DNA from: Actinomycetes bacterium
Lineage (GTDB): Bacteria > Actinomycetota > Actinomycetes > Mycobacteriales > Mycobacteriaceae
NCBI GenBank assembly: GCA_029780675.1
Contig: JAKOYE010000092.1
Coordinates: forward strand, 37,407-101,406
DNA length: 64,000 nucleotides
Direction of reading: 5' to 3'
The translations under genes were made by a program, and so were the position numbers. Below, one piece after another: positions 29,745-64,000 of the stretch (the first letter of the stretch is position 1; each line of letters opens with the position of its first letter). The notes below the pieces were generated by a model. That model made no database searches. It was not told where the DNA came from and was given only the letters and a program-made list of their open reading frames with translations.

Positions 29745-30428
29745 CTAGCGGCCCGGCTGTCCTGACCCGTCGTCCGCGGAGCCCAGGAGAAGCCGCACCG
29801 TCAGATCCAGTCTTTTGCTGACATCGCTAGCAGAAGCCCGCCTGGTCAGCCAGGCCAGCAGATTCGACAGCCAGACATCGGAGATCACCCGGGCGATGTG
29901 GTACTGGTCCTCAGTCGGCTCGCCGTCGCTCATCGCCCGGGCGAACATGCCGTCGACGATCTTCTCGACATGGTCCACCTCGCCCGCGGCGGAGGCGTCG
30001 GCGAACACGTAGGCGCGGGTCATGGCCTCGGTCAGCAACGGGTTGCGCTGCATGGCTCGGGTGAGCTTGCTGACCATGAAGTTCAACCGCTGGAACGGGG
30101 TTCCGCCGGCGACGGCGGAGCGATCGGTCTTGGCGTCGATCCGCTCGAACTCCCGGCCCAGTGCGGACACCAGCAGGTGGACCTTGGACGGGAAATATCG
30201 GTACAGCGTGCCGACCGCGACATCCGCACGGTCAGCCACGGCCCGCATCTGCACCGCCTCGTAGCCGCCCTTGGAGGCGATCGCCAGGGTGGCGTCGAGG
30301 ATTCGTTTGCGCCTCTCGCGCTGTGCTTCCGAGCCCAGTTCCGATTCCGTCAGGACCGAGACCGGTGTCACCTCGCGTGGCTGAGAGCCGGGTTCTCCCG
30401 CCGAGGGCTGCTGCGCTGTCGAGGACAT
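29745..30428 (-). CDS. kstR: TetR-family cholesterol catabolism repressor KstR
   Basis: Represses the first half of sterol degradation; released by 3-oxo-4-cholestenoyl-CoA-type ligands. The TetR helix-turn-helix (AQRERRKRILDATLAIASKG, then VAVGTLYRYFPSK) is nearly the M. tuberculosis KstR sequence, as are GEPTEDQYHIARVISDVWL and LLAWLTRR. ATG 30428 gives 227 aa; GTG 30371 would give a protein closer to the M. tuberculosis length and is a valid alternative. The track start at 31787 is a shadow through fadE34. Divergent from fadE34 with a KstR box between. Confidence 0.95.
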   Translation of the reverse strand: MSSTAQQPSAGEPGSQPREVTPVSVLTESELGSEAQRERRKRILDATLAIASKGGYEAVQMRAVADRADVAVGTLYRYFPSKVHLLVSALGREFERIDAKTDRSAVAGGTPFQRLNFMVSKLTRAMQRNPLLTEAMTRAYVFADASAAGEVDHVEKIVDGMFARAMSDGEPTEDQYHIARVISDVWLSNLLAWLTRRASASDVSKRLDLTVRLLLGSADDGSGQPGR

Positions 30429-30528: not shown

Positions 30529-30578
30529 GTGGTCGGTGCCGGTAGCCGCCCATGTCGCACCGACCCGAGGAGACGACG

Positions 30579-32732
30579 GTGTCCGCCACCATCACCGACG
30601 AGCAGTTCGCTGCCCGCGAGCTGGTTCGCGCATGGGCGTCCGGCGCGGCCGCGGCGGCCGCCGTCCGCGAGCTCGAGCAGGGTCGGTCCGGCCCGGGGTC
30701 GGATGCCTGGCGGGCCGTCTTCGACGGTCTGGCGGAACTGGGGATCTTCGGGGTCGCGGTCGCCGAGGAGGCCGGCGGCGCCGCCGGATCGGTCGCGGAT
30801 CTGTGCGCGATGATCGACGAGGCCGCGTACGCCCTGATCCCGGGCCCGGTGGCCACCACCGCGCTGGCGACCCTGGTGGTCGACGACCCCGACCTGCTGG
30901 TCCGGCTGTGCACCGGTCGACTGACGGCGGGCGCGGCGTTCACCGCCGATCTGCATGAGCAGGCCGGCCGGGTGTCCGGGACGGCCGAGCATGTCCTCGG
31001 CGGGCTGTCGACCGGCGTGCTGCTGCTCCCGGTGGGTGACGGGGTCGTCGTCGTCGATGCGGACGGCCCGGGTGTCACGGTCGAACCGCTGCCCGCCACC
31101 GACTTCTCCAGGCCACTGGCCAGGGTGACGTTGCGGGACGTACCGGCTGTCCGACTCGCGGTGTCCGGGCGCCGGTTCCTCGACCTCGCCGCCACCGTGC
31201 TGGCCGCCGAGGCTGCCGGGGTCGCGCGCTGGACGTTGCACACCGCGGCCGAGTACGCCAAGGTGCGCGAACAGTTCGGAAAGCCCATCGGCAGCTTCCA
31301 GGCCGTCAAGCACATGTGTGCCGAGATGTTGCTGCGCTCGCAACAGGCCGCGGCCGCGTCGGCCGATGCCGCTGCGGCAGCCGACGCCGCCGTGGCGGCG
31401 GGAGCAGCCGAGCAGGACCAGTCGGTCGCCGACGAGCAGTTCGCCCTCGCCGCCGCGGTCGCCGCGGCCGTCGGCATCAGCGCGGCCACCGGCAACGCCA
31501 AGGACTGCATCCAGGTGCTGGGCGGGATCGGTTTCACCTGGGAGCACGACGCGCACCTCTATCTGCGACGGGCGTATGCCCTGGGGCAGCTGCTCGGTGG
31601 ACGTTCCCGGTGGTTGCGCCGGGTGGGGGAACTGACCCGGAGCGGGGTCCGCCGGGAACTGCGGATCGACCTCGACTCCGTCGAGCACCTCCGCCCGGAG
31701 ATCGCCGACGCGGTGGCCCGGGTGGCCGCGCTGCCGGAGGCCGAACGTCAGGTGGCCCTGGCCGACACCGGGTTGCTGGCCCCGCACTGGCCACGGCCCT
31801 ACGGGCGCGGCGCCTCCCCGGCCGAACAGCTGCTCATCGACGCGGAGCTGACGGCCGCCGGGGTCACCCGCCCCGATCTCGTCATCGGCTGGTGGGCGGC
31901 GCCCACCCTTCTCGAGGGCGGCACACCCGAACAGATCGAACGGTTCGTGCCGGCCACGCTGCGCGGTGAACTGCGCTGGTGCCAGTTGTTCAGCGAACCC
32001 GGCGCGGGCTCGGATCTGGCGGCCCTGCGCACCCGGGCGGTCCGCGACGAGCGCGGATGGAGGCTCACCGGCCAGAAGGTCTGGACCTCAGCGGCGCACA
32101 AGGCCGACTGGGGCGTCTGCCTGGCTCGAACGGACCCGAGCGCTCCGAAACACAAGGGCATCACCTACTTCCTGGTCGATATGCGCTCGCCGGGCATCGT
32201 GATCCGGCCGCTGCGTGAGATCACCGGCGACGAACTGTTCAACGAGGTCTTCTTCGACGATGTCTTCGTGCCCGACGAGATGGTGGTCGGTGCGGTCAAC
32301 GACGGCTGGCGGCTGGCCAGAACCACGCTGGCCAGTGAGCGGGTGGCGATGGCCCACGGCACCGCGCTGGGAAACCAGATGGAGCAGATGCTGCGCGATA
32401 TCGCCGGCGCCGACCTTGATGCCGCTACCGCCGACCGTCTCGGCGAACTGTTACTGGCCGCGCAGGTCGGTTCGCTGCTCGATCATCGGATCGCCCAGTT
32501 GGCCGTCGGGGGTCGGGACACCGGGGCGGAAGCCAGTGCCCGAAAGCTGATCGGGGTGCGTTACCGCCAAGCCCTCGAGGAGTTCCGGATGGACCTCTCG
32601 CCGGGCGGGGGACTGGTGGTCAACGGGGCCGTGCAGAGCTTCCTCAACACCCGGTGCCTGTCCATCGCCGGCGGCACCGAGCAGATTCTGCTCAGCATGG
32701 CCGGTGAACGACTGCTCGGCCTTCCCCGTTGA
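30579..32732 (+). CDS. fadE34: Two-domain acyl-CoA dehydrogenase FadE34 (ChsE3 type)
   Basis: 717-aa fusion of two acyl-CoA dehydrogenase modules. The first (about 1-360) has FGKPIGSFQAVKHM and GGIGFTWEHDAHLY; the second (about 370-717) has FSEPGAGSDLAAL, NEVFFDDVFVP and GGTEQILLSMAGERLLGLPR. Family FadE34 proteins oxidise steroid side-chain acyl-CoA esters with a five-carbon or 3-carbon chain. A GAGGAG lies 6 nt before GTG 30579, which is preferred over the ATG at 30552. Divergent from kstR and under a KstR box. Confidence 0.92.
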   Translation: MSATITDEQFAARELVRAWASGAAAAAAVRELEQGRSGPGSDAWRAVFDGLAELGIFGVAVAEEAGGAAGSVADLCAMIDEAAYALIPGPVATTALATLVVDDPDLLVRLCTGRLTAGAAFTADLHEQAGRVSGTAEHVLGGLSTGVLLLPVGDGVVVVDADGPGVTVEPLPATDFSRPLARVTLRDVPAVRLAVSGRRFLDLAATVLAAEAAGVARWTLHTAAEYAKVREQFGKPIGSFQAVKHMCAEMLLRSQQAAAASADAAAAADAAVAAGAAEQDQSVADEQFALAAAVAAAVGISAATGNAKDCIQVLGGIGFTWEHDAHLYLRRAYALGQLLGGRSRWLRRVGELTRSGVRRELRIDLDSVEHLRPEIADAVARVAALPEAERQVALADTGLLAPHWPRPYGRGASPAEQLLIDAELTAAGVTRPDLVIGWWAAPTLLEGGTPEQIERFVPATLRGELRWCQLFSEPGAGSDLAALRTRAVRDERGWRLTGQKVWTSAAHKADWGVCLARTDPSAPKHKGITYFLVDMRSPGIVIRPLREITGDELFNEVFFDDVFVPDEMVVGAVNDGWRLARTTLASERVAMAHGTALGNQMEQMLRDIAGADLDAATADRLGELLLAAQVGSLLDHRIAQLAVGGRDTGAEASARKLIGVRYRQALEEFRMDLSPGGGLVVNGAVQSFLNTRCLSIAGGTEQILLSMAGERLLGLPR

Positions 32733-32740
32733 GCGGGGTC

Positions 32741-33034
32741 CTAGACGTCGTAGCTGACTTCGACGGAATCGGTGACGGGGCGTGACTGGCAGGCCAGGAT
32801 CAGGCCGTCGGCGAGGTCGTCGGGCTCCAGCGCGTCGTTGACCTCCATCACGACCTCACCGGCGAGTTTGGTCGTCGCACAGGCGCCGCAGTGGCCCTCG
32901 CGGCAGGAGTAGGGCGCCTCCAGGCCCTTGTCGAGCAGGACGTCGAGCAACTTCTCGCCGCGCGGCCAGGACACGGTGTGCGTCTGGCCGTCGAGGTGCA
33001 CCACGGCGGTGGCCGGAACGTCGGGGCTCGTCAC
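32741..33034 (-). CDS. KshB-like [2Fe-2S] ferredoxin domain protein (N-terminal reductase missing)
   Basis: 97-aa plant-type ferredoxin with CREGHCGAC and a distal cysteine in LILACQSRP as cluster ligands. The sequence strongly resembles the C-terminal ferredoxin domain of KshB, the reductase of 3-ketosteroid 9-alpha-hydroxylase, and the gene sits exactly where kshB lies in M. tuberculosis, divergent from hsaA. The FAD- and NAD-binding domains of KshB (about 250 residues) are absent; only 157 bp separate it from hsaA. It has its own site AAAGGAG 9 nt before GTG 33034 and a KstR box, so it looks expressed. It could be a kshB remnant or a stand-alone ferredoxin for KshA or CYP125. Confidence 0.85.
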   Translation of the reverse strand: MTSPDVPATAVVHLDGQTHTVSWPRGEKLLDVLLDKGLEAPYSCREGHCGACATTKLAGEVVMEVNDALEPDDLADGLILACQSRPVTDSVEVSYDV

Positions 33035-33073
33035 TGGCGATGACTCCTTTCGGTGCGGACTTTTCCCGCGAAC

Positions 33074-33087
33074 TAGAACACGTTACA
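33074..33087. promoter_or_regulatory. KstR operator upstream of the KshB-like ferredoxin
   Basis: tagAACacGTTaca matches tnnAACnnGTTnna. It lies 40 nt before the ferredoxin GTG on the minus strand, so the short gene retains sterol-responsive control. Confidence 0.88.
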
Positions 33088-33141
33088 AAAATGGCAATTC
33101 GATGAACTAGCAGGTACAAGCTCAGGCTTCTCGACACGAAT

Positions 33142-33155
33142 CGTAACGTGTTCTA
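33142..33155. promoter_or_regulatory. KstR operator upstream of hsaA
   Basis: cgtAACgtGTTcta keeps the AAC/GTT core with one outer mismatch and lies 37 nt before hsaA. TAGTCT (33154-33159) overlaps its edge and could be the -10 of the hsaA promoter, so bound KstR would occlude it. Confidence 0.85.
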
Positions 33156-33191
33156 GTCTGAGGCGCAGGCACCCACTCCCGGGAGGAAGCA

Positions 33192-36208
<3,017 letters not shown>

Positions 36209-63221: not shown

Positions 63222-64000
63222 TCAGTCCTTCCGGGTGTTCGCCAGGTGCAGCGCCGCCAGGTAGCCGAAGGTCATCGCCGGGCCGATGGTGCCGCCCGGG
63301 CCGGGATAGGTGTGCCCCATCACCGGCGCGCTGACATTCCCGGCGGCGTACAGCCCTTCGATCACCGACCCGTCGTCACACAGGGCGCGGCCGTGAACGT
63401 CGGTCCGAATGCCACCCTTGGTGCCCAGGTCGCCGGGAACCAACCTGGCGGCGTAGTAGGGCGGATGCGTGATCTCGCCCAGGTTGGGGTTCGGCTTGTT
63501 GGTGGGGTCGCCGTAGTAACGGTCATACGCACTCTCGCCGCGGTGGAAGTCCTCATCGATCCCGGAGCGGGCGAAACCGTTGAACCGGTCCACCGTCGAG
63601 CGCAGCTCGGCGGCCGGCAACCCGGTCGAAGCGGCGAGTTCGTCGAGGGTATCCGCCTTGACGATGACGCCGGAGTCCAGCCACTTCTGTGGAATGCGTT
63701 GCCCCGGTTGCAGACCGGCGAAGATATAGCGGTCGCGGTACTGCTGGTCGAAGATCAGCCAGGCCGGGATGTTCTCCCCCGGACCGTCGCCCTGGCCGAA
63801 CTCGCCGCCGTACATCCGGTGACAGGCCTCGACATAGGGCATCGACTCGTTCATGAACCGTTGCCCCGACATGTTGACGATCATCGAACCCGGGGAGTTG
63901 CGTTCCGAGAGCGCGAACCAGGGCGCGCCCTCCAGCGGCACCGTCGGGCCCCACCAGGCATCCTCCATGAGATCCAAAGCCGCACCAAGCTTCTCGGCGA
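63222..64000 (-). CDS. kstD: 3-ketosteroid delta1-dehydrogenase KstD, C-terminal part (partial)
   Basis: The open frame runs off the window end; the start is outside. The visible 259 codons (first shown AEKLGAALDLMEDAWWGP) contain the flavoprotein C-terminal region with NMSGQRFMNESMPY, DPTNKPNPNLGEI, GTKGGIRTDVHGRAL and GLYAAGNVSAPVMGHTYPGP, typical of KstD. It inserts the delta1 double bond into 4-androstenedione-type steroids using FAD, enabling ring B opening with KshAB. Confidence 0.93.
   Translation of the reverse strand, partial: AEKLGAALDLMEDAWWGPTVPLEGAPWFALSERNSPGSMIVNMSGQRFMNESMPYVEACHRMYGGEFGQGDGPGENIPAWLIFDQQYRDRYIFAGLQPGQRIPQKWLDSGVIVKADTLDELAASTGLPAAELRSTVDRFNGFARSGIDEDFHRGESAYDRYYGDPTNKPNPNLGEITHPPYYAARLVPGDLGTKGGIRTDVHGRALCDDGSVIEGLYAAGNVSAPVMGHTYPGPGGTIGPAMTFGYLAALHLANTRKD

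Follow-up and report, generated by a model that had tools for sequence, protein, structure and literature searches.

The window, the whole stretch of 64,000 nucleotides analysed here, carries at the kshB site a stand-alone ferredoxin gene that appears to be what remains of kshB after loss of its reductase half. A single in-frame deletion, running from a point directly behind the start codon up to the linker that precedes PATAVV, would have removed the FAD and NAD domains in the shared ancestor of a Mycobacterium group that is uncultured and found mostly in freshwater. The C-terminal [2Fe-2S] domain would thereby have been joined to the native promoter with its KstR boxes, and to the ribosome site and start codon of kshB. 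The product would now act as a functional free ferredoxin, induced together with the steroid genes. Through it the Rieske oxygenase KshA would receive electrons from a separate flavoprotein reductase, most likely FprA and/or FdrA, which the genome already encodes. The 3-ketosteroid 9-alpha-hydroxylase (KSH) would thus have changed from two components (KshA and KshB) to three (reductase, free ferredoxin and KshA). We give this account as a whole a probability of about 0.7, all of the evidence being sequence, mostly that of metagenome-assembled genomes (MAGs).

The ferredoxin gene, its neighbours and its occurrence

The ferredoxin gene (32741..33034, minus strand) starts with GTG downstream of an AGGAG ribosome site and stops with TAG, and its GC content by codon position (0.71/0.44/0.93) follows the coding pattern usual for the host genome. 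Fer2 (PF00111, E 1.6e-18) is the sole Pfam domain in the 97-aa product, with cluster cysteines C44, C49, C52 and C82 in a CX4CX2C...C pattern, and in alignment the protein is 68–80% identical to the C-termini of fused KshB. Taken together, the ORF, the Fer2 domain, the alignment and the fold identify it as a stand-alone plant-type [2Fe-2S] ferredoxin, the probable remnant of the KshB C-terminal domain. This agrees with an earlier note on this DNA, which had likened the product to that domain and proposed alignment with the kshB of close relatives. The locus likewise bears out its description of a gene in the position and orientation of kshB that lacks the FAD/NAD domains and lies 157 bp from hsaA. 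On one side the gene converges, across a gap of 8 bp, with a fadE34-type acyl-CoA dehydrogenase gene (30552..32732, plus strand), and on the other it diverges from hsaA (33192..34376, plus strand; NCBIfam NF045629, 670 bits), the start of which is 157 bp away. The TetR-family repressor of the regulon, kstR (29745..30428, minus strand), was identified from synteny and from its conservation across the group. No FAD/NAD domain was found on searching the hsaA–fadE34 interval, nor were RNA families found at the ferredoxin locus.

In all, 22 species-level genomes have a stand-alone gene at the kshB site, and nearly all of them are MAGs of uncultured organisms; for this count, contig positions were matched by hand and the match between two collections was deduced from coordinates. 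Six other stand-alone cases were among 149 genomes drawn first from the genus, in about 130 of which the same domain ends an open frame of 354–417 aa; the second draw, of 397 genomes, contained 19, the window's own genome included. Scanning GTDB genomes recovered the stand-alone form in 16 MAG records and fused forms in named Mycobacterium and Mycolicibacterium, and the titles of several stand-alone MAG records indicate lakes or rivers. With the same neighbours, the gene occurs at 76–93% identity across many other MAG species, and wherever the contig reaches it is surrounded by kstR, fadE34, hsaA, hsaD, hsaC and hsaB. Of the 22 stand-alone genomes, 19 were placed in a tree of concatenated KstR, FadE34 and HsaA–D sequences (six proteins), built by a quick method without bootstrap, and a single branch (SH-aLRT 99) sets all of them apart as one group. 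Related MAGs have an amino-acid permease gene (L168:8266-9666) or a cyclopropane-synthase-like gene (L170:8312-9205) between the ferredoxin gene and fadE34; a reductase hidden in this longer gap was rejected, as these genes are what the gap contains.

KshA as the probable client of the free ferredoxin

In the usual KSH, electrons pass from NADH via FAD and the [2Fe-2S] cluster of KshB to KshA. KshA is kept in 16 of the 19 stand-alone genomes; that of the window's genome shares 83–94% identity with most of the orthologues compared, has an intact Rieske motif and is encoded 2 bp from a KstR box. Genes of the kstD type and hsa genes are also present. Of the three genomes without a close KshA, two are only 72–80% complete. 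The other, G254, has the free ferredoxin (locus L164) but, at 97% completeness, only a distant KshA homologue (E 2.5e-47), a case that counts against the model. In G140, conversely, KshA-type genes are present while a KshB-type ferredoxin was not matched at E 1e-15, perhaps owing to an assembly gap. Compensating changes in KshA were rejected, given that only three of its columns are diagnostic, and weakly so.

The window's kstD-type gene (63222-63977) is truncated at the end of contig C239 and resumes at the start of C167 (L095:2-1126), from which it follows that the steroid cluster, kshA included, continues on C167. Contigs C122 (L125) and C209 (L129) of the same genome carry a near-identical KstR-boxed region, suggesting strain mixture or duplication.

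In vitro, KshA can be supplied with electrons from a reductase through added free ferredoxins (PMC10992505). A three-component KSH function appears likely for the genes described here, with the ferredoxin probably passing its electrons to KshA. The earlier note had named KshA or CYP125 as possible users of a free ferredoxin; KshA is the better supported of the two by its retention, whereas the continued presence of FdxD speaks against CYP125. It is unlikely that the ferredoxin serves other oxygenases, e.g. CYP125 or another P450, and not KshA. The gene shares its KstR cluster with CYP125, M. tuberculosis KshB may serve more than one oxygenase (PMC4064121), and G254 lacks a close KshA but has the ferredoxin. 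However, CYP125 uses [3Fe-4S] ferredoxins, namely FdxD in M. tuberculosis (PMC6208970) and Fe3S4-type ferredoxins in M. neoaurum (PMC13254585), and the window's genome has kept an FdxD-type [3Fe-4S] gene adjoining a KstR box on C167. CYP125 is an unlikely client because its own [3Fe-4S] ferredoxin, as judged by this gene, is still present, and 16 of the 19 genomes have kept both KshA and the free ferredoxin.

Domain loss at the native kshB locus

The ferredoxin gene and hsaA have in common a bidirectional promoter region of 157 bp (33035..33191) with the same layout as that before intact kshB in relatives. It contains two putative KstR boxes, identified by matches to TNNAACNNGTTNNA, the KstR motif of the literature: the ferredoxin-proximal box TAGAACACGTTACA (33074..33087) matches exactly, and the hsaA-proximal box CGTAACGTGTTCTA (33142..33155), 68 bp from the other, has one mismatch. 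Genome-wide there are 29 exact matches to TNNAACNNGTTNNA, many of them before steroid genes, versus 11 for a reversed control. The ribosome site and KstR operator that the earlier note considered to have been kept are therefore both recognisable, the latter as two predicted boxes. Among the loci compared, the 68-bp spacing of the two boxes recurs in 18 of 19 with the stand-alone gene and in 15 of 15 with intact kshB, and the distance from the start codon to the second box is similar in both kinds. As the promoter and start-codon context match those of intact kshB, an ancestral in-frame deletion inside the gene, made in one step, would be the simplest event.

Strong support for domain loss at the native locus comes from synteny, the shared promoter and start context, the identity of 68–80% to KshB C-termini and the absence of the KshB reductase half from 19 genomes. 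Synteny and promoter carry this argument because the ferredoxin tree, based on 88 columns, resolves few deep forks, with weak deep support. Replacement of kshB at this site by an unrelated or paralogous stand-alone ferredoxin is very improbable. A protein of the kind exists in other mycobacteria, where a further stand-alone member of this ferredoxin family (L194–L199, in G123, G134, G108, G066, G115 and G103) is encoded next to a second hsaA-like cluster; its neighbours resemble hsaA, hsaC and hydrolase genes and, at the loci read, include a flavin monooxygenase gene. The weakness of the deep forks also leaves some room for replacement. Set against this, the window's protein is 57–59% identical to that paralogue versus 68–80% to KshB C-termini, the paralogue groups away from the kshB-locus ferredoxins and coexists with intact kshB, and the upstream region, promoter to start, is that of kshB. 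The earlier note had held that a phylogeny joining the gene to independent ferredoxins, or relatives with both this gene and an adjacent intact kshB, would speak against its proposal. Neither was found: the other stand-alone type, only 57–59% identical, branches elsewhere, albeit in a tree with weak deep support, and none of the stand-alone genomes has an intact kshB.

The lost reductase half and candidate reductases

A genome-wide search of the 19 stand-alone genomes, of the kind the earlier note had proposed, yielded no intact or full-length kshB. The best match to the KshB FAD/NAD half in these genomes is 36% identical, versus 77–100% in intact relatives, and neither these searches nor a survey of PF00175 found the NAD-binding domain of KshB. 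These results bear on the possibility that kshB was split and its reductase half is now encoded as a protein of its own at another locus, for which the odds are again very low. Several FNR-type reductases are left in each genome and some MAGs are incomplete; nevertheless, matches to the FAD/NAD half do not exceed 36% identity in any of the 19 genomes, and those inspected in the window's genome are other reductases, encoded beside a fatty-acid desaturase gene or beside Hcp, or a hydrogenase-type subunit.

Under outright loss of the reductase half, the ferredoxin would draw on reductases already present. FprA was found in 17 of the 19 stand-alone genomes (in two as contig-end fragments) and FdrA in 14; none of the 19 lacks both, G391 having a fragment only. 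The FprA query was based on the M. tuberculosis protein, and the matches are 69–83% identical to it. Both also occur in intact relatives, and in the group neither is specific or KstR-linked. M. tuberculosis has these two as separate ferredoxin reductases, FdrA preferring NADH and FprA NADPH, both active with several ferredoxins (PMC6208970). FprA and/or FdrA are likely candidates for the reductase of the free ferredoxin.

The earlier note had also considered domain loss coupled with a replacement reductase elsewhere, to be sought under KstR boxes. Domain loss is upheld by synteny, promoter and identity, but no reductase proved to be group-specific or, within the group, KstR-linked. On reading the surroundings of KstR-like boxes, a KstR-boxed replacement was rejected: the sole nearby case is FdrA on C195, about 4 kb downstream of a box with opposite-strand genes between, and beside FdrA in the group's other genomes no KstR box or partner SDR was found. 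On the same contig (L127:5001-10000, G000:C195), a KstR-boxed SDR and FdrA lie about 3 kb apart, also with opposite-strand genes between, and two intact relatives, G061 and G095, have box, SDR and FdrA in one run.

Selection, residue changes and fold

The stand-alone gene evolves under purifying selection, as indicated by a median pN/pS of 0.23 (171 pairs, median dS 0.79) versus 0.24 for the fused domain, and all four cysteines are kept across the 19 stand-alone lineages. The earlier impression that the gene is functional gains weight from this pN/pS and from the conserved cysteines and boxes. That it is instead a non-functional, decaying remnant in genomes undergoing reduction is slightly harder still to credit than replacement or a split gene: these genomes are small (1.9–5.0 Mb versus 5–7 Mb in most relatives), but a pN/pS of 0.23 over 171 pairs and conservation of the four cysteines and both KstR boxes in 19 lineages are at odds with decay. 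An assembly or binning artefact is next to inconceivable, for although the window's genome is fragmented and MAG-like (257 contigs, 93% complete), the arrangement recurs in 22 separately assembled genomes.

Two positions distinguish the free from the fused form. Residue 27 is Ala in 32 of 32 fused and Glu/Asp in 18 of 19 free sequences, and at residue 57 every fused sequence has Arg/Lys and each of the 19 free ones a hydrophobic residue or Cys; these changes would fit surfaces formerly covered by the lost domains. AlphaFold predicts a confident ferredoxin fold (pLDDT 95), and the folds closest to this predicted structure are those of chloroplast and cyanobacterial ferredoxins (TM about 0.85–0.88).

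Comparison with known systems

With KshB of the Rv3571 type the protein shares locus, orientation, KstR boxes, cysteines and 68–80% identity over the C-terminal [2Fe-2S] domain, but it lacks the FAD- and NAD-binding domains and has 97 aa compared with about 350–400. It resembles plant-type [2Fe-2S] ferredoxins (Fer2, PF00111) in its single domain, fold and cysteine pattern, cluster binding being predicted, and differs from them in deriving from a reductase C-terminus and in scoring 50 bits where the NCBIfam plant-ferredoxin cut-off is 81. The L194–L199 ferredoxin is similarly stand-alone, KshB-type and encoded in a ring-degradation-like cluster, yet it lies at another locus and, besides its 57–59% identity, belongs to genomes in which kshB is intact.

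Like three-component (Batie class IIA) Rieske systems, the proposed hydroxylase would combine a free [2Fe-2S] ferredoxin, a Rieske oxygenase and separate FAD reductases that are available in the genome. Unlike those systems, its genes are not in one operon, its oxygenase KshA comes from a normally two-component system, and in place of a dedicated FAD reductase there are FprA and/or FdrA in all 19 genomes (one by a fragment), neither dedicated nor KstR-linked. We therefore regard it as the known KSH system in altered form rather than as a different kind of system. A separate ferredoxin has never been detected for KSH according to a review (PMC4064121), which also cites a biochemical study (Strijewski 1982) of a 9-alpha-hydroxylase that was partly purified from Nocardia M117 and had three components. 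Among the papers searched, we found no earlier described case of such a stand-alone kshB.

Implications for steroid degradation

In characterised strains, KSH consists of KshA and a three-domain KshB, both of which are needed for steroid ring opening and for virulence of M. tuberculosis (PMC4064121). If the present lineage manages without the FAD/NAD half, it would illustrate how plain domain loss converts a Rieske oxygenase from a two-component into a three-component system. For steroid biocatalysis, the gene would offer a ready-made free ferredoxin, and added free ferredoxins already raise KshA turnover (PMC10992505). On balance we favour the view that a group of freshwater mycobacteria possesses a natural three-component KSH, in which the left-over ferredoxin would draw on the general ferredoxin reductases by which their P450s are also supplied; two electron-transfer chains kept apart in other mycobacteria would thereby be joined.
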